From Fimbriiglobus ruber (lineage in GTDB: Bacteria; Planctomycetota; Planctomycetia; Gemmatales; Gemmataceae), in NCBI RefSeq assembly GCF_002197845.1, contig NZ_NIDE01000001.1:620001-684000 (forward strand): a stretch of DNA of 64,000 nucleotides, written 5' to 3'. Under the pieces are notes generated by a model. That model did not search any database. It was given only the letters and a program-made list of their open reading frames with translations, and was not told the DNA's origin. The translations under genes and the position numbers were made by a program. Positions 47,383 to 56,195 of the stretch are shown piece after piece; the first letter of the stretch is position 1, and each line of letters begins with the position of its first letter.

Positions 47383-50370
47383 ATGTCTGGTTCGTCAGTT
47401 AATGTTGTCCCGTCCCCAACCGCCCCGGAGATGACGATGAACGACGAGTTGCGCCGCCGGTTCCCCGACATGACCCCGATCCAGTCGGCCCCCGGGTTAT
47501 CCTCAATCAACGGGATCGGGACGACGATCGTCGGTCAACGGGACCATGATGCGGAAACTGGGACGTATGTCAAAACTCACTGTTTCTGCGTTTTGTTCGT
47601 CCCACTCATTGCTCTGGGGGCGTACCGGGTGGCGGACGCCGAGCGGGGCTGGTATTTCATCGGCCGCGTCCCGCTCTCCAAGTTCGCCCGCAGATGGAAC
47701 CTGGCACTACTCCTGATCTGCATCGCGGCAGCTGGCGGCATCGGGTGGACAGTCCACACCAATTCGCCGGAATACCAGGCGGGGCGGAAGATCGATGAAG
47801 CGGACCGTCTCGCGGCCGCGGGCCAGCACGGGAAGGCGGCCGGTATCTATCGGGACGTGCTAACCGGGCCGACCCCGAAGGCCGCCGCCGACGCCCGCGG
47901 GAAACTGGCCGCCCTCTTCGACGACCCGGGCCCGCCGGCAGACCAGGCCCCCGAGGTGTTTCGGGTCGCGCTCGATCTCGGCCGGCGGAACCAGTCGCCG
48001 GTCCCCGACCTGTACGACCGCGGCGTCCGGCTGGCCCAATCACGCGCGGCCGACGACCCCTCGGCCGCCCTGGACCTGTTGGAGACCGTCAGTCCGCTCG
48101 CTCCCAAGCCGGCGGACATCCTCGCACTACGCCGCGAACTTCTGGAGAAACTGGTGGCCTCCCGGCCGACCGATCCGGCCGCCGCGTCCCGGCTCGCCGT
48201 GGTCTACGAGGCGACCGGGCAGCGGGACAAGTGCGAGGCGCTGCTCGTTCCCCACGAGACCCAACTCGGCGTTCTGGAGGGGGCGGCCGTCCTCGGTCGG
48301 ATCTACGCCGAACGAGGGAAATTCGACCGGGCCGTCACCTTGCTGAAACCTTACGTGGACGCCAAACTGCCCGCCCTGCGAACCGCCGAGTCCCGGCTCC
48401 AGGCGGCCGGCGACGGGGCCGAAAAGCGCGTGATCGAACACCTCAAGTCCGGCCACGCCCCCGGTTTCGACTACCAGGCCCACAAGCGGGCGCCACAAGC
48501 CCAGCAGGGGGTACTCGTCAACAACTTTGTCGAGGCCGCCCTGAAGGACGATCCGGAAATCCGCGACGCCCGGCAAGCGATGGTGGCGGCCGCGGGCGTA
48601 GTGCCCGCCGCCCTCGACCTCGGCATGGTCCAACTCCAGCGCGGCCAACAAGCGACGGACCCCGCCGTGCGGGAAGCCAACCTCAAGGCGGCTGAGCAGA
48701 CGTTCTTATCGGTCCGCGGTTTCGCCCAGCAATCCGACACGTACCGGCTTTCACTCGGGCAGGTGTACTACTGGCTCGGCAAACACGCCGACGGCAAGAA
48801 GCAGTTCGACGACCTCCTGGCCGCCCGCGGCCGGACGACCGAAACGCTCCTCCTGGTCTCCGGGGTACTCCGTGAGGTAGGCGCGGTCACGGACGCACGA
48901 GCCATCAGCGAAGAGGCTTACAACAAAGAACCCGATATTCAGAAGAAATACCTCGCGGCCCGACACCGGGCGCTTCTGTTTACCGAACTGGACGACGAGA
49001 TCACCTGGCTCTCCCGGTCGGACCCGTCAGATTCGTCCGTCAAGGCCAGCCTCGCGTCCACCAAAGGACATAAAGCCGCCCAGAGCGGCCAGACGACCGA
49101 CGCGGTCGCCCACTTCAAGACCGCGATCGGCGTGTACGCCGACCAGCCCGAAACGGCTTCCACCTTGAACAACTCGGCCCTGTGCCATTTCGACGTGTAC
49201 CACTTGACCGGGGACATCGCGGAGTTCACTCGGGGGACCGAGAAACTCGACCGGGCCATCGCCCTCTTGCCGAGCGACACCATTCTGCTCCACAACGCGG
49301 CCAACGTCGTCCTTGATGGGGCGATTCGTGATACGGCCGGAGCCGCGCTCAACATGACCGCCCTGAAGCGGCAGGCCGGTTGGCACGTGTTGCCGTTCCT
49401 CTACGCCGATTCCGAAGGTCGTAAGGCTCTGGCGAAGAAACTCGCGGCCCACCCGGGGCTCGTGAAGGCCCGGGCCTACTACGAGAAGTTGATGGTGCTC
49501 GCCCCACGCGGCGGTGACGCGTATGAACAACTCGACACCATGCATACGTGGACGAAAGACGTCGCCGCACTCCGGGCCGTGGCCGACCGGGTCGACAAGG
49601 CGGATCTGGATTTGTCTCACCAAAACCAGGAATACCGCGACTATCTGGCGGGCAAGAAGGACGCCAAGCTCCTCTCCGACCTCAAGCAAGGGGCCGACCG
49701 GGCCCGGGAGACGATGGCGGCGACGGCAGGGAAGAAAGACGCGACATACGCCGTCGCGGTGGCCGATTACGTCCGCTGTCGCTCGACCGCGGCGTTGTTC
49801 GGGCAGGCGGTCGACGCCGACGAACTCGTCACCTTGGCCGAACAGGCGGACGCGGCCGGGAAATCCGAGGGGTCCGCGACAACGCTCCGGCAAACCCTCG
49901 CCCTCCGCGCTCACCTCAGACTGATCCGCACCGTGCCGGAATACGGTCGTGTGGCCACCCCGGCTGTGACCCGCCTGCTCGGACTGATCGTGCCCGATCT
50001 GATTCTGTTCGAGGGCGGTCCGCTGGCCGCTCAAATCGGCGCGGATCCGGACATGCGACGGCGGCGGGAGCTGCTTCGGGCGGCCGTCACGGCTGGGGTG
50101 GAAGACTTCGGCCCGGCGAGTTGGGCGTTACTCGTCGGGTGGAACGATCCGGCGGCCGGCCGGATTGCCGAGCGGAACCGGGCCGACGAAATTGACTTGC
50201 TGTCCCGCCGGATCGAACGGAAGACCACTCCGGAAAGTGTGTCGGCGCGGCTCAAGGAGTACCTTGCCCAGCGGATGGCCGGCCGGACCGAGTTGGCAGA
50301 CGCCGAGCGAAAGGCGATGACGGCCGCCGGCGTTCCGGCTCCGTACATCGCTCCGGCGAAAGCGCCGTAA
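47383..50370 (+). CDS. Large TPR-like membrane protein
   Basis: About 995 residues. The first 100 residues carry a module seen in planctomycetes: GIGTTIVGQRDHDAETGTYV then FVPLIALGAYRVADAERGWY. A transmembrane helix follows (LALLLICIAAAGGIGWTVH). The rest is helical, with repeated TPR-like units such as EADRLAAAGQHGKAAGIYRD and LDLGMVQLQRGQQATDP. No catalytic motif is visible. The ATG at 47383 is preferred to a TTG at 47377. A strong terminator follows, so it is probably not in one transcript with the vWA gene, though both point the same way. The role is unknown, possibly assembling a membrane complex. Confidence 0.78.
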   Translation: MSGSSVNVVPSPTAPEMTMNDELRRRFPDMTPIQSAPGLSSINGIGTTIVGQRDHDAETGTYVKTHCFCVLFVPLIALGAYRVADAERGWYFIGRVPLSKFARRWNLALLLICIAAAGGIGWTVHTNSPEYQAGRKIDEADRLAAAGQHGKAAGIYRDVLTGPTPKAAADARGKLAALFDDPGPPADQAPEVFRVALDLGRRNQSPVPDLYDRGVRLAQSRAADDPSAALDLLETVSPLAPKPADILALRRELLEKLVASRPTDPAAASRLAVVYEATGQRDKCEALLVPHETQLGVLEGAAVLGRIYAERGKFDRAVTLLKPYVDAKLPALRTAESRLQAAGDGAEKRVIEHLKSGHAPGFDYQAHKRAPQAQQGVLVNNFVEAALKDDPEIRDARQAMVAAAGVVPAALDLGMVQLQRGQQATDPAVREANLKAAEQTFLSVRGFAQQSDTYRLSLGQVYYWLGKHADGKKQFDDLLAARGRTTETLLLVSGVLREVGAVTDARAISEEAYNKEPDIQKKYLAARHRALLFTELDDEITWLSRSDPSDSSVKASLASTKGHKAAQSGQTTDAVAHFKTAIGVYADQPETASTLNNSALCHFDVYHLTGDIAEFTRGTEKLDRAIALLPSDTILLHNAANVVLDGAIRDTAGAALNMTALKRQAGWHVLPFLYADSEGRKALAKKLAAHPGLVKARAYYEKLMVLAPRGGDAYEQLDTMHTWTKDVAALRAVADRVDKADLDLSHQNQEYRDYLAGKKDAKLLSDLKQGADRARETMAATAGKKDATYAVAVADYVRCRSTAALFGQAVDADELVTLAEQADAAGKSEGSATTLRQTLALRAHLRLIRTVPEYGRVATPAVTRLLGLIVPDLILFEGGPLAAQIGADPDMRRRRELLRAAVTAGVEDFGPASWALLVGWNDPAAGRIAERNRADEIDLLSRRIERKTTPESVSARLKEYLAQRMAGRTELADAERKAMTAAGVPAPYIAPAKAP

Positions 50371-50665: not shown

Positions 50666-51505
50666 ATGCCTTACGCCGCCGAAATCAGTCGCACCAACCC
50701 CGCGTGCTTCATCCTTTTGATCGACCAATCGGGGTCGATGGACGACCCGTTCGCCGGTGAGCCGGACACCAAGAAATCGGTGGTCGTCGCGGACGGCGTG
50801 AACAAGATGCTGCAAAACCTCGTCCTGAGGTCGGCCAAGGCGGACGGGGTACGCGACTACTTCCACGTGGCGGTGATCGGGTACGGTAAAATGACGCATG
50901 CCGGCCTCGGCGGGCGGCTCCCGACGGACGCGCTGGTCCCGATCAGTCGCCTGGCCGACTCCCCATTGCGGATCGAGACGCGGACGAAAACCGTGTCGGA
51001 CGGGGCAGGGGGGCTGCTCGAAAAATCGGTCAAGGTGCCGGTCTGGTTCGATCCGGTGGCGAACGGGCGGACGCCGATGTGCGAGGCGCTTTCCGCCGCG
51101 TGGCTGACCGCGCGGGAGTTCATCGAGCGATACCCGACCGCGTACCCGCCGATCGTGTTGAACCTCACGGACGGCCGCCCGAGCGACGGGAACCCGCAAG
51201 ACACCGCGAAGAATCTCCGGCGGTTGGCCACGGCCGACGGAAACGTCCTACTCTTCAATCTGCTCCTGTCCACCGAGCCGAAGCCGCCGATGTATTTCAT
51301 TTCGGACGGATCGTTGCTCGTGGACTTGTACTCGAAGTTGTTGTTCGTGATGTCCAGCCAGCTGCCGCCGCGAATGCTCCAGGGAGCCCGCGCCGAGGGG
51401 TTCGACGTCGAGGAGGGGGCTCGCGGGGTGGTTTTCAACGCCGATCCGGCCGCGGTCGTCCGCTTTTTGGACATCGGAACGCGTGTCGCGTCCGTCTACA
51501 AATGA
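50666..51505 (+). CDS. TerY-like von Willebrand A protein
   Basis: A 279-residue vWA domain protein. The MIDAS metal site is D20-x-S22-x-S24 in FILLIDQSGSMDDPF. The later NGRTPMCEAL Thr and LNLTDGRPSDGNPQD Asp complete it. The ATG at 50666 has GAGGGGTGT just upstream; an upstream in-frame start at 50585 is unlikely. The stop overlaps the PP2C start as ATGA. Placement before a PP2C phosphatase and a kinase matches the TerY-P triad described in tellurite-resistance-associated systems. No signal peptide, so cytoplasmic. Confidence 0.87.
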   Translation: MPYAAEISRTNPACFILLIDQSGSMDDPFAGEPDTKKSVVVADGVNKMLQNLVLRSAKADGVRDYFHVAVIGYGKMTHAGLGGRLPTDALVPISRLADSPLRIETRTKTVSDGAGGLLEKSVKVPVWFDPVANGRTPMCEALSAAWLTAREFIERYPTAYPPIVLNLTDGRPSDGNPQDTAKNLRRLATADGNVLLFNLLLSTEPKPPMYFISDGSLLVDLYSKLLFVMSSQLPPRMLQGARAEGFDVEEGARGVVFNADPAAVVRFLDIGTRVASVYK

Positions 51506-52269
51506 GTGGGGTCACAACAGCAGGCCCGGTCGTATGGGGCGCCGCTTCCCTACCCAAAATCGGCAACCGGGCTGATGAGAACGAGGACGCGATCGCGGCC
51601 GCGCCAGCCGGGTTACGCTTCGCCGTCGCCGACGGGGCGACCGAGGGGTGGCACTCGAAGGCGTGGGCGGACCGACTGGCGCGGGCGTTCGTCGTCCGGC
51701 CCCCGGCGCCGTCTGATTTCGCCGGTTGGCTGACGGAAGCCCGTACCGGATGGGATCCGCCCGCCCGGTCGGGGCCGGCGTCGTGGTACGCCGAGGAAAA
51801 AGAAATTCAGGGCGCGTACGCCACGTTGCTCGGGGTTCGCCTGATACCGCGGGCGGCGGGCGGGTGGGCGTGGAAAGCGGTCGCGGTCGGCGACAGCTGT
51901 CTGTTCGTCGTCCGCGGCGAGCGGCACACGCACGCCTTCCCGATCGACAACCCGGAAGTATTCGGTTCCTCCCCGCTGCTCGTGGCGAGTACGCCGGCCG
52001 GGTCCGGCGAGCCGGACTGGATGGCCGGCCAAACCCTCCCCGGCGATCTCCTCGTACTCGCGACCGACGCGGTTGCCGCCTGGCTGCTGCAGACTGCCGC
52101 GGACGCAACTCCCGCGTGGCCTCGGGTGCGAACGGCCCTGAACGAACCGGACGCGCCCGCCCGCGCCGCCGGCCTCCGAGAATTGTTGGGCGACGCGCAA
52201 GCTGCTAAAAACGACGATGCGTCGATGGTCGCTGTTCTGGTCCCCGAGCCCGCGGAGCCACCCAGATGA
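51502..52269 (+). CDS. PP2C-type protein phosphatase
   Basis: A 255-residue PPM/PP2C-family phosphatase. Metal-binding acidic residues are visible in GNRADENEDAIA, FAVADGATEGW, AVGDSCLFVVR, LATDAVAAWLL and NDDASMVAVLV. The Asp of the VADGATEG motif and the C-terminal NDDAS are hallmarks. The ATG at 51502 overlaps the vWA stop and the gene's own stop overlaps the kinase ATG, giving tight translational coupling. It probably reverses phosphorylation by the neighbouring kinase. Confidence 0.88.
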   Translation: MSGVTTAGPVVWGAASLPKIGNRADENEDAIAAAPAGLRFAVADGATEGWHSKAWADRLARAFVVRPPAPSDFAGWLTEARTGWDPPARSGPASWYAEEKEIQGAYATLLGVRLIPRAAGGWAWKAVAVGDSCLFVVRGERHTHAFPIDNPEVFGSSPLLVASTPAGSGEPDWMAGQTLPGDLLVLATDAVAAWLLQTAADATPAWPRVRTALNEPDAPARAAGLRELLGDAQAAKNDDASMVAVLVPEPAEPPR

Positions 52270-55200
52270 GTTGGCCACTCCCGCAAGAAATCAATGAAGC
52301 CATTCAATCCCCGAGCGTCTCGTTCGCCGACCCGGACCTCAAGGCCGGCGACCCGGTGGTCGGGGCGACCGGGCTGCCGCTCCCGCGGTCGGGCAACTTC
52401 GCGGACGTTTACCAGATCCGCGGGGCCGACGGCCGCGATTGGGCAGTCAAGTGCTTCACGCGCCCCGTCGTCGGTCTGGACAAACGCTACGACAAGATCG
52501 GCACGGCACTGGCCGACGCGAAGCTCCCTTTTACGATCGGTTTTACGTTCCTGAAAGACGGCATTCGGCACGCCGGACATTGGTATCCGGCGGTCAAAAT
52601 GGAGTGGGTCGAGGGGCTTCAACTCAACCAGTTCGTCCGCGAGAACGCCGGCAAGCCGCACGTTCTGAACGCCTTGCTCCAGATGTGGACCAAGGTGGCC
52701 AAGCGCCTCCGCGACGCGGGACTGGCCCACGCCGACCTCCAACACGGCAACGTGCTGCTGGTCGCGGGTTCAAAGCCCGGATCGTTCGGGCTGAAACTGA
52801 TCGACTACGACGGCATGTACCTCCCGGCGCTGGCCAACCAGCCGTCCGGGGAACTCGGGCACGCGGCGTACCAGCACCCCCAACGGGCGGAGACGCGAGT
52901 TTACTCCCAGGATCTGGACCGATTCCCGCACCTCGTCGTGGCCTCGGCGCTCAAGGGACTGGCCGTCGTCGGTAAGGAGCTGTGGGACCGGTACGACACC
53001 GGAGACAATCTCCTCTTTACCGAAGCCGACCTGAGAAACCCGGCCGGGTCCAAGCTGATCCACGAGCTATGGCAGACCGGTCACCCGGAAGTTCGCGCGC
53101 TGGTCGGGCGATTGGCCGTGTCGGCCCGCAGACCGCTGACCCAGACGCCCTGGCTCGATTCGATCGCGCCGGACGGCGCGCCGACCCTGCTGACCCCGGA
53201 AGAAGACTACGACGCCGCGGTCGCGCTCGGGTTAGCCGCGCCGCGGTTCGCGGCCGTCGTTCAATCGATGCCCTCGACTGCTACCGTCGCCGCACTGCCG
53301 ACCGTGGTGGCGCCGGCGCTCGCCGCGCCCGTTAACGCACTGGATTTCGGTGACGACGACGACCGCGCCGCCGAGTCGGACGAGCCGCGTAAGAAAAAAT
53401 CGAGCGTCCCCATCCTGATCGCCGCGGTCATCGGGATGCTGGTCATCGGCGGCGGCGCGATCGGGGCGCTCGCGCTGATGTTCGGCAAAACACGCGACGT
53501 GACCCAGGTTTCAACTCCCCCCGAGGGAACCTCGCAGACGAACGTACCGAAAGTTGACAGCCCGCCGACGAAGAAAGACCCCGCGGATAAAAACCCAGCC
53601 AAGCCGGGTGACGACACCAAACCCCGCACGCAACCAGCCGGGAGCGGGACGAATCCGCCGCCACAGAACACTGTGACCGGTCCGGTCCAGAACCCGTTCC
53701 AGGTCAAGGTCGAAGAGCAGGAGCCTAATCCGATCCAGTATCCGGGAAACCTTCGGGTACTCAACGCCCGCTGGGTTGCAAACCCGACGGCCGTGGGTTC
53801 CAACCGGTGGCCGGATTGGATGGGCGTAACTTCGGATTCGCTTGCCGTCCTGTTTCGGTATTACAACGAGCGCTCGATCGGCATCCTCGACACCGCCACT
53901 GGCTCGCCCGTCGGTGGGTTTTCGGGCCCCGAGTTCGGCAACCTGGCCGCCGAACCGGTGCCGCTCGCGGGCGGCAAGCTCGTTACGCAATCAATTGGTT
54001 CGGACGAGGCCGTTGTCTGGGACGTCAAGACCTGGCAGGTCGTCCGGCGGTTCCCCTCGCGCACGTTTCCCGGCGCGGTGAGGCTTCCCTGGCTACTCGG
54101 AATGACGAAGGACGGCCGGTATCTGGCCGTCGGCGTTCGTGGCTTACTGGGGATCAAACCCACGCCCGAACCGGGGGAAAACTTGCCCGCTTACGCCCGC
54201 GGGTCGGTTGTCGTGGTCGACACGCGCGACAACCGGGAAATCGCCCGGACGGAGTTGTGCGGCGGGTTATTTAGCTTTACCGACGATGATTCCGCCCTGA
54301 TGATTGCGGACGATTACGGGCGCGTGTCGAAAGTGGTGCTTGAATCCGGCTCGGTTACGTCCTCGAACGCCGACTTGAAGAACCGCTGCCCGGTACTCGC
54401 GATCACTCCGAAGGGCGATCGCGTTTACTACGAAGTGCCGACGCCGGACGGTAAACTGGCACACATATATGACGCCGCGACCGGTCAGTTGGTCAGTGCG
54501 TTGCCCTCCGTATATCGGAATCGCGGTTTGGCGCTGACCCCGGACGGTAAATGGCTACTAACGTTCGCGATGTTAAATATTGGCAAGAATCCGGTCGGAT
54601 TGCACGTCGCGATTGACGACGCAAACACGCTCGCGAATGTCGCCTGGATTAAAGTGCCTGGTGCTACTGGTGCAGCTCGCATGCGGCTCACGCCGGACGG
54701 AACCGGCATTCTCTTGTCGCGGCAGACCAGCAGCACATTCGCGTACTACACGATCCCGGGCGACCTGGTGGCGTCCGGCACGCGTCCCAAACCTCCCACT
54801 CCTACGCCCCCGCCGGGTACTCCCGCCAAGACCGCCGTCGTGGAGAAAAAGAGTCCGGTCCCGGACGACGAGGCGGCCGCGAAGAGTGACGCCGACATCA
54901 AGGCCGTGTTTAAAACCGAGTATGCCAAGAAATCGGCGGCCGATAAGAAAGTGTTAGCCAAGAAACTGCTCGAACTGGCGGACAAGACGCCGGACGACAT
55001 GACGGCCCGGTACGTCATGCTGAGAAGCGCCAAGGATTTAGCGATCGACGGGCTCGACGCGACGATGGCGGTCCAGTCGATCGAGAAACTGGGTACGCTG
55101 TACGAAGTCGACGCCAATGAACTGAAAGTGACGGCGCTGGAAAAAATCCTGGCTGCGGGGAGTGGGGCGACCCTCTACCGCGCGATCATCGACGCCGCCA

Positions 55201-56195
55201 CTTCGGCCACCGACGCGGCCGAGGAGCAGGATTCGTTCGACCTCGCCATCCGGTACGCGACGATGATCGTGACCGCGAACCGGAAGGGCAACCTTGCCCC
55301 GACGGACGAATCCGAGGCCCGGGTCGCGCAACTGAAGAAACTCCGCGACCAGTACGGCAAAGTGAAGGCGGCGATCGATTCGTTGAAAGACACCCCGAAC
55401 GACGCGGAAGCGAATCTGCTCGTCGGTCGGTTCCGTTGTTTCACGTTGGGCAAGTGGGCGGACGGGGCCAAGAACCTGGCGAAAAGCAACAACGCCCCGC
55501 TCAAAGAACTCGGCGAGCAGGAAGTCGCGCCGCCGACCGACGCGGCCGGCATGGCCAAACTCGGCGACACCTGGTGGGAATTCGCCCACGACGGGAGCGC
55601 CGACGCGAGCGAAAAGAAGATGGCCGAGGCCCGGGCACGGCACTGGTACAACACCGCCCTGCCCGAACTGACCGGTCTCGCTCTGGCCAAGGTCCAGGGG
55701 CGCCTCGATTTGACAGTCGGGATGAACGTCTACAAGCCCGGTCTGATTCTCGAATTCGTCAAGCTGCCGGACAACATTCAAAAGAAGCCGCGGATCGAAC
55801 CGCGGCTCCTGCACGACGCCACCGAATTCTCCCCCCCGCCCGGCAAGGCCGCCGGCACCTACACGGTCCGCTGGACGGGGTACGTCGTTCCGCCCAAACC
55901 CGGGCGGTATCGATTCGTCGTGTCTCCGAGTAACAACAGTCTCGGATTTAAATTCCAGGTCGGGAAACACCCCTTGATCGCCGACCGGGTGACCGCGCGG
56001 GGCAACAAGCCCGAGATCGTTGTGACGCTCACGGACAAGCCGACCCCGCTGGCTTTTGAACACCAGGGTTTCACGTTCAACGGCGAGCAAGTCAAGATTC
56101 TTTGGTCCAGTGCGAACTCGAAGGAAGGCACCGAAGAACTGGTCCCCGCGGAATGTCTGTTTCACGACAAGAAGGCCGAAATTCTTTTGAAGTGA
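52266..56195 (+). CDS. Membrane protein kinase-like protein with propeller and PA14-like ectodomain
   Basis: A 1309-residue protein. Residues 25-290 form a divergent protein-kinase fold: a degenerate Gly loop RSGNFADVYQI, Lys62 in WAVKCF, a catalytic loop H155-A-D157-L-Q-H-G-N162 and D180-Y-D-G in place of DFG. A Pro/acidic linker leads to one membrane helix near 380-402 (ILIAAVIGMLVIGGGAIGAL). The outside part has a WD40/YVTN-like propeller at about 490-835 (LALTPDGKWLLTF, MRLTPDGTGILLS), a helical section, and a PA14-like domain from about 1165 (TYTVRWTGYVVPPKPGRYRF). The kinase core residues are present, so it may be active. Confidence 0.85.
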   Translation: MSWPLPQEINEAIQSPSVSFADPDLKAGDPVVGATGLPLPRSGNFADVYQIRGADGRDWAVKCFTRPVVGLDKRYDKIGTALADAKLPFTIGFTFLKDGIRHAGHWYPAVKMEWVEGLQLNQFVRENAGKPHVLNALLQMWTKVAKRLRDAGLAHADLQHGNVLLVAGSKPGSFGLKLIDYDGMYLPALANQPSGELGHAAYQHPQRAETRVYSQDLDRFPHLVVASALKGLAVVGKELWDRYDTGDNLLFTEADLRNPAGSKLIHELWQTGHPEVRALVGRLAVSARRPLTQTPWLDSIAPDGAPTLLTPEEDYDAAVALGLAAPRFAAVVQSMPSTATVAALPTVVAPALAAPVNALDFGDDDDRAAESDEPRKKKSSVPILIAAVIGMLVIGGGAIGALALMFGKTRDVTQVSTPPEGTSQTNVPKVDSPPTKKDPADKNPAKPGDDTKPRTQPAGSGTNPPPQNTVTGPVQNPFQVKVEEQEPNPIQYPGNLRVLNARWVANPTAVGSNRWPDWMGVTSDSLAVLFRYYNERSIGILDTATGSPVGGFSGPEFGNLAAEPVPLAGGKLVTQSIGSDEAVVWDVKTWQVVRRFPSRTFPGAVRLPWLLGMTKDGRYLAVGVRGLLGIKPTPEPGENLPAYARGSVVVVDTRDNREIARTELCGGLFSFTDDDSALMIADDYGRVSKVVLESGSVTSSNADLKNRCPVLAITPKGDRVYYEVPTPDGKLAHIYDAATGQLVSALPSVYRNRGLALTPDGKWLLTFAMLNIGKNPVGLHVAIDDANTLANVAWIKVPGATGAARMRLTPDGTGILLSRQTSSTFAYYTIPGDLVASGTRPKPPTPTPPPGTPAKTAVVEKKSPVPDDEAAAKSDADIKAVFKTEYAKKSAADKKVLAKKLLELADKTPDDMTARYVMLRSAKDLAIDGLDATMAVQSIEKLGTLYEVDANELKVTALEKILAAGSGATLYRAIIDAATSATDAAEEQDSFDLAIRYATMIVTANRKGNLAPTDESEARVAQLKKLRDQYGKVKAAIDSLKDTPNDAEANLLVGRFRCFTLGKWADGAKNLAKSNNAPLKELGEQEVAPPTDAAGMAKLGDTWWEFAHDGSADASEKKMAEARARHWYNTALPELTGLALAKVQGRLDLTVGMNVYKPGLILEFVKLPDNIQKKPRIEPRLLHDATEFSPPPGKAAGTYTVRWTGYVVPPKPGRYRFVVSPSNNSLGFKFQVGKHPLIADRVTARGNKPEIVVTLTDKPTPLAFEHQGFTFNGEQVKILWSSANSKEGTEELVPAECLFHDKKAEILLK

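Follow-up and report, generated by a model that had tools for sequence, protein, structure and literature searches.

TerY-P triads, comprising a vWA protein, a PP2C phosphatase and a kinase, are familiar chiefly from tellurite stress and phage defense and have already been described with either a zinc ribbon or an OB fold behind the kinase (PMC11090510). According to the passages of later papers that deal with them, the STK-zinc ribbon triad is found in Ter and CoCoNuT loci (Anantharaman et al. 2012, via PMC11090510), and the STK-OB triad is a stand-alone antiphage system (Gao et al. 2020, via PMC11090510 and PMC7699616). Protection by TerY-P has been described for T7-like phages (PMC7699616) and for Autographiviridae, where most cells survive (PMC10889362). 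In GAP1-N2 GTPase systems, a kinase, sometimes with TM helices, likewise lies beside a PP2C gene and a standalone vWA gene, and this kinase-PP2C-vWA theme in GAP1-N2 loci is said to be limited to actinobacteria (Kaur et al. 2020, PMC7159879). As for the Planctomycetota, PMC11032199 describes single-TM Ser/Thr kinases with periplasmic WD40, TPR, sulfatase-modifying or DUF1080 domains as common in the phylum.

We analyzed a 64,000-nucleotide stretch of Fimbriiglobus ruber DNA (the window), in which a vWA gene, a PP2C gene and a long kinase gene follow one another on the same strand, with the features listed here.

50666..51505, + strand: TerY-type vWA gene, 279 aa (PADLOC TerY E 3e-92; MIDAS residues invariant)
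51502..52269, + strand: PP2C-type phosphatase gene, 255 aa (PADLOC PP2C E 1.9e-24; Pfam PP2C_2 24.4 bits; acidic residues invariant)
52266..56195, + strand: receptor-type kinase gene, 1309 aa, a single open frame (PADLOC STK_OB E 2.7e-62, residues 1-298 only)
52266..53159, + strand: kinase domain, residues 1-298 (pLDDT 92.5; Foldseek E 7e-8; catalytic residues kept)
53406..53462, + strand: transmembrane helix, residues 381-399 (hydropathy 2.46 over 19 residues; K/R 5 before, 2 after)
53742..54764, + strand: WD40-type beta-propeller, residues 493-833 (VIA-align Z 24.5; Foldseek E 1.6e-13)
54867..55703, + strand: alpha-helical solenoid, residues 868-1146 (predicted helices, pLDDT mostly near 90)
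55710..56168, + strand: PA14-like beta domain, residues 1149-1301 (Pfam PA14 22.6 bits; strands in model)

PADLOC profiles place all three proteins in the TerY-P triad. With the STK-OB triad, the locus shares the same three proteins and the same type of kinase, the vWA protein being matched over its full length and the kinase half of the STK_OB profile being matched whole; however, the window kinase covers positions 1-291 of the 562 in this profile and leaves 292-562 unmatched, indicating that the OB half is absent, and carries a TM helix, propeller, solenoid and PA14-like domain in its place. The core of vWA, PP2C and kinase is also common to the STK-zinc ribbon triad, and in the window kinase protein we found neither a Pfam match to a zinc ribbon nor, on reading the sequence, a paired CxxC. 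With respect to the Ter stress system, the preliminary description of this DNA had remarked on the absence of terB, terC and terD nearby; the terD part of this remark holds for the entire genome, which had no match to the TerD family in a search that covered TerD and was positive in control genomes. The kinase-PP2C-vWA set is shared with the GAP1-N2 systems too, but a GAP1 gene is lacking beside the window triad, as clustering of neighbor ORFs yielded no GAP1 relative at 44-62 kb of the window (the GAP1-like group comprised L108, L114 and L120).

The window kinase also has the layout of planctomycete receptor kinases, i.e., a kinase, one TM helix and a presumably outer WD40-type propeller. Its inferred topology is that of the kinases in PMC11032199, with a similar palette of outer domains; in contrast, the latter are Hanks-type kinases collected by PF00069, to which the window kinase has no match, and dedicated vWA and PP2C genes, which form part of the window triad, go without mention in the portion of that paper drawn upon here. 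We found no description of a TerY-P core combined with a receptor kinase and swapped ectodomains; since Anantharaman et al. 2012 and Gao et al. 2020 are known to us via citing papers, this is not proof that such a combination is unreported.

Gene layout and catalytic proteins

Both junctions of the triad are ATGA overlaps, at 51502-51505 (vWA/PP2C) and 52266-52269 (PP2C/kinase), and re-reading of coordinates, overlaps and motifs agreed with the preliminary description on this point. Third-position GC is 0.79-0.86 in the three genes and is the highest among the codon positions in each, as coding sequence here should show. The triad arrangement is confirmed as real and not due to chance, because the same arrangement recurs widely in other loci. 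No promoter or terminator consensus was found upstream of the triad. Directly upstream lies a gene for a TPR-repeat protein with an N-terminal hydrophobic segment (window 47431-50370), which had no homologue beside other triads upon clustering of 385 neighbor ORFs.

The vWA protein is matched by the TerY profile at residues 1-276 and weakly by Pfam. Its MIDAS, made up of DQSGSM, T136 and D169, is invariant in 11 homologues, in keeping with the MIDAS-type protein proposed earlier. In the phosphatase, for which the Pfam PP2C_2 score is just above the cut-off of 24, E28-D29, D44-G45, D189 and D238-D239 are retained without exception by 10 homologues, in agreement with the acidic metal residues already pointed out. 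None of the three proteins was assigned to a family by NCBIfam.

In a rival reading, the kinase would be a pseudokinase scaffold, with the ectodomain governing assembly and not catalysis. In favor of a scaffold, the window kinase does not match PF00069 (Pkinase) up to E 1, has weak similarity to ABC1/RIO in Pfam and harbors a degenerate glycine loop (SGNFADVY). However, K62, H155, N162, D180 and D182 do not vary across 18 diverged homologues, 17 of which keep D157, so the loss of catalytic residues that might have overturned the preliminary description did not occur and, among the four positions it had singled out (Lys62, Asp157, Asn162 and Asp180), only Asp157 varies, in a single homologue. 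Moreover, several homologues of the window kinase do reach PF00069 (e.g., L166 at 1.5e-10 and L086 at 3e-8), a profile of the kinase family finds PAK, ULK and StkP in the PDB by sequence, and the confidently predicted fold of residues 1-298 retrieves protein kinases from the PDB with a Foldseek probability of 1.0. We thus consider a pseudokinase very unlikely; judging from conserved residues and the predicted fold, the active site of the kinase is intact.

Membrane helix and C-terminal modules

The preliminary description had placed a TM helix, a WD40-like propeller and a PA14-like domain behind the kinase. Hydropathy locates the helix at residues 381-399, and the predicted structure agrees with the propeller (rmsd 3.5 over 302 residues in VIA-align), with a low-confidence linker between the two. 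For the PA14-like domain, the window protein is just below the Pfam cut-off of 24, and homologues score 27-32 bits. Between propeller and PA14-like domain, we recognized a helical solenoid that had been absent from that description. Based on hydropathy, a weak positive-inside bias and the context of the modules, we infer that the C-terminal part of the kinase lies outside the cytoplasmic membrane. This placement is supported by relatives of two modules that carry apparent signal peptides: the solenoid has relatives in other proteins of the same genome, one of which (L027) starts with such a peptide, and a cytochrome-type protein (L030) to which the PA14-like part is similar seemingly has one as well. 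The data support the preliminary view of a TerY-P core with a transmembrane anchor and an outward sensor module.

The membrane anchor had been thought unusual for such a kinase, a notion that our survey contradicts. A TM helix was present in all 52 close-clade kinases having a C-terminal part, the lengths of which ranged from 93 to 1703 aa (median 879), some of the shortest possibly being clipped at contig ends. Beyond the planctomycetes, 29 of 39 sampled kinases had a TM helix, with shorter C termini (median 388); these 39 were picked by similarity to the window kinase and do not constitute a census. Pfam analysis of 43 C-terminal parts disclosed propellers in at least 20 and PA14 in 9. Other members bear a C-type lectin (L084), 3-keto-disaccharide hydrolase plus LamG-like domains (L082), FGE-sulfatase plus HEAT repeats (L083), PEGA plus WD40 (Thiomargarita L167) and weak helix-hairpin-helix matches (L175, L202). 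The kinase of Runella (L191) reaches into the OB-type region, with STK_OB matched to position 423.

The kinase domain is far better preserved than what follows it. Among kinase pairs that are 65-85% identical, ectodomains could be aligned over 70% of both members in 20%, and 31% had no detectable similarity. The kinase domains of L063 and L066 are 83% identical vs. 33% for the ectodomains, and the two kinases of L064 are 90% identical, one having an ectodomain of 1387 aa and the other one of 99 aa. In contig JACRIH010000486.1 (L141, L145), at least 6 tandem kinases come after a single vWA-PP2C pair; their kinase domains are 64-87% identical and their C termini mostly unrelated. As gauged from these comparisons, the ectodomains either diverge far faster than the kinases or are unrelated; such rapid change could also reflect relaxed constraint instead of new specificities. 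A near-constant kinase next to unrelated ectodomains, with several kinases per vWA-PP2C pair, amounts to a natural domain-swap setup.

Occurrence of the triad across genomes

Within the family, 61 of 95 genomes contain a homologue of the kinase (E 1e-15 or better) and 45 of 95 a vWA match. When restricted to close homologues (kinase E <=1e-65, vWA E <=1e-85, cut-offs that were set after a gap in the lists had been seen), 30 genomes had both kinase and vWA, 2 kinase only, 2 vWA only and 61 neither, with a Fisher p of 5e-20 that is optimistic because the genomes are related. A failure of the genes to co-occur in other planctomycetes, which would have spoken against the preliminary description, was thus not observed. 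The four single-gene exceptions look like assembly gaps: in G002 and G019, the kinase is on a contig of 4-6 kb and has a PP2C gene shortly before it, and genome completeness is 75% for G003 and 69% for G030. In a phylum-wide search, which covered up to 6 candidates per genome in 392 genomes, the vWA protein was found in at least 3 apart from the home genome, a lower bound given this cap and the family-centered profile.

Reading of the loci revealed vWA and PP2C genes just upstream and on the same strand for 27 Gemmataceae kinases and for 31 in the comparison set, with the usual gene order in homologous loci being vWA-PP2C-kinase. Within the clade, kinase, vWA and PP2C show correlated pairwise distances (Mantel r 0.73-0.84); the kinase tree, many forks of which are weak, served solely to place close relatives. 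The triad is not always complete, as evidenced by 11 stand-alone kinases. Eight Gemmataceae kinases were scored with vWA alone; one of these, L071, owes this score to a start-codon artefact in ORF calling, leaving 7 loci. In L074, L075, L081, L088, L089 and L096, the kinase adjoins a vWA gene and no PP2C gene was found nearby. The clustering of the 385 neighbor ORFs revealed no fourth conserved partner or effector; the widest group reflects, we think, shared repeat domains, and the next-widest groups are generic planctomycete proteins.

Proposed mechanism and possible outputs

Taken together, we think it probable that the locus is a stand-alone triad of the TerY-P type in which the kinase acts as a single-pass membrane receptor feeding a shared vWA/PP2C core. 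In this scheme, the C-terminal part outside the cytoplasmic membrane would bind a ligand, and binding would alter the activity or oligomerization of the kinase, which may then phosphorylate itself, the vWA protein or a client brought by the vWA protein. The latter might accordingly serve as substrate, scaffold or client-binding adaptor, with the PP2C phosphatase resetting the phosphorylation state. The finding of several kinases with one vWA-PP2C pair suggests that the pair provides a shared output for which the kinases serve as interchangeable inputs; the pair would then form an output core that stays constant while various receptor kinases connect to it, their ectodomains presumably being swapped and diversified to read different signals. 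Compared with the known TerY-P triads, in which the kinase is followed by an OB fold or a zinc ribbon, the membrane-anchored branch adds identifiable outer domains and, being common among the sampled homologues, offers a direct route to the trigger of the triad and the role of the vWA protein.

What this receptor would report on may be viewed in two ways, both hypotheses on the output that are compatible with the receptor architecture and can both hold. The locus may act against phages in the manner of the TerY-P systems tested so far, with the ectodomain sensing phage adsorption or damage to the envelope, upon which the triad would start a phosphorylation-dependent block of infection. The protection by TerY-P against T7-like phages and Autographiviridae makes defense a serious possibility, to which PADLOC defense profiles matching all three proteins, the patchy spread of the vWA gene in the family and the fast-changing ectodomains would conform. 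However, no conserved effector or defense neighbor accompanies the triad, the OB kinases of the tested systems are cytoplasmic, and the palette of outer domains is common to ordinary planctomycete kinases (PMC11032199); we therefore regard defense as possible and would not presume it.

The same resemblance in outer domains to ordinary planctomycete kinases renders it at least equally likely that the receptor senses the envelope or polysaccharides to guide growth, adhesion or development, defense playing no part. PA14, C-type lectin, LamG-like, 3-keto-disaccharide hydrolase and PEGA domains among the C-terminal parts are in line with such a sensor, a reading that we find quite plausible while stopping short of calling it probable. 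Speaking against it, about half of the family genomes are without the system, arguing that the function is not a core one, and no wall or glycan gene is conserved next to the triad. Going beyond the receptor triad itself, we tentatively speculate that a constant phospho-core is served by diversifying, swappable and tandemly multiplied TM sensor kinases that recognize variable outside threats or partners, analogous to the receptor-kinase repertoires of eukaryotes, an idea we hold to be possible.

Other triads in the same genome

The genome of the window harbors additional sets. A third triad (L006 7077-10862; G000 contig C8, ~415-419 kb) is formed by vWA, PP2C and a kinase of 701 aa, whose TM helix lies at 469-487 and whose short outer part had no Pfam match. 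A second TerY-P set (L005 9816-17884 and L114 9937-12699; G000 contig C20, ~409.8-421 kb) contains a vWA-like/PP2C fusion, a TerY vWA, a kinase lacking a TM helix and a GAP1-N2/GAP1-M protein (Pfam 4e-10 and 7e-7). In L108 and L120, too, the kinase has a GAP1-like protein in its vicinity, with GAP1-N2 confirmed by Pfam at C20 only. The GAP1-N2 protein in the C20 set lies outside the actinobacteria, where Kaur et al. (PMC7159879) placed the theme.
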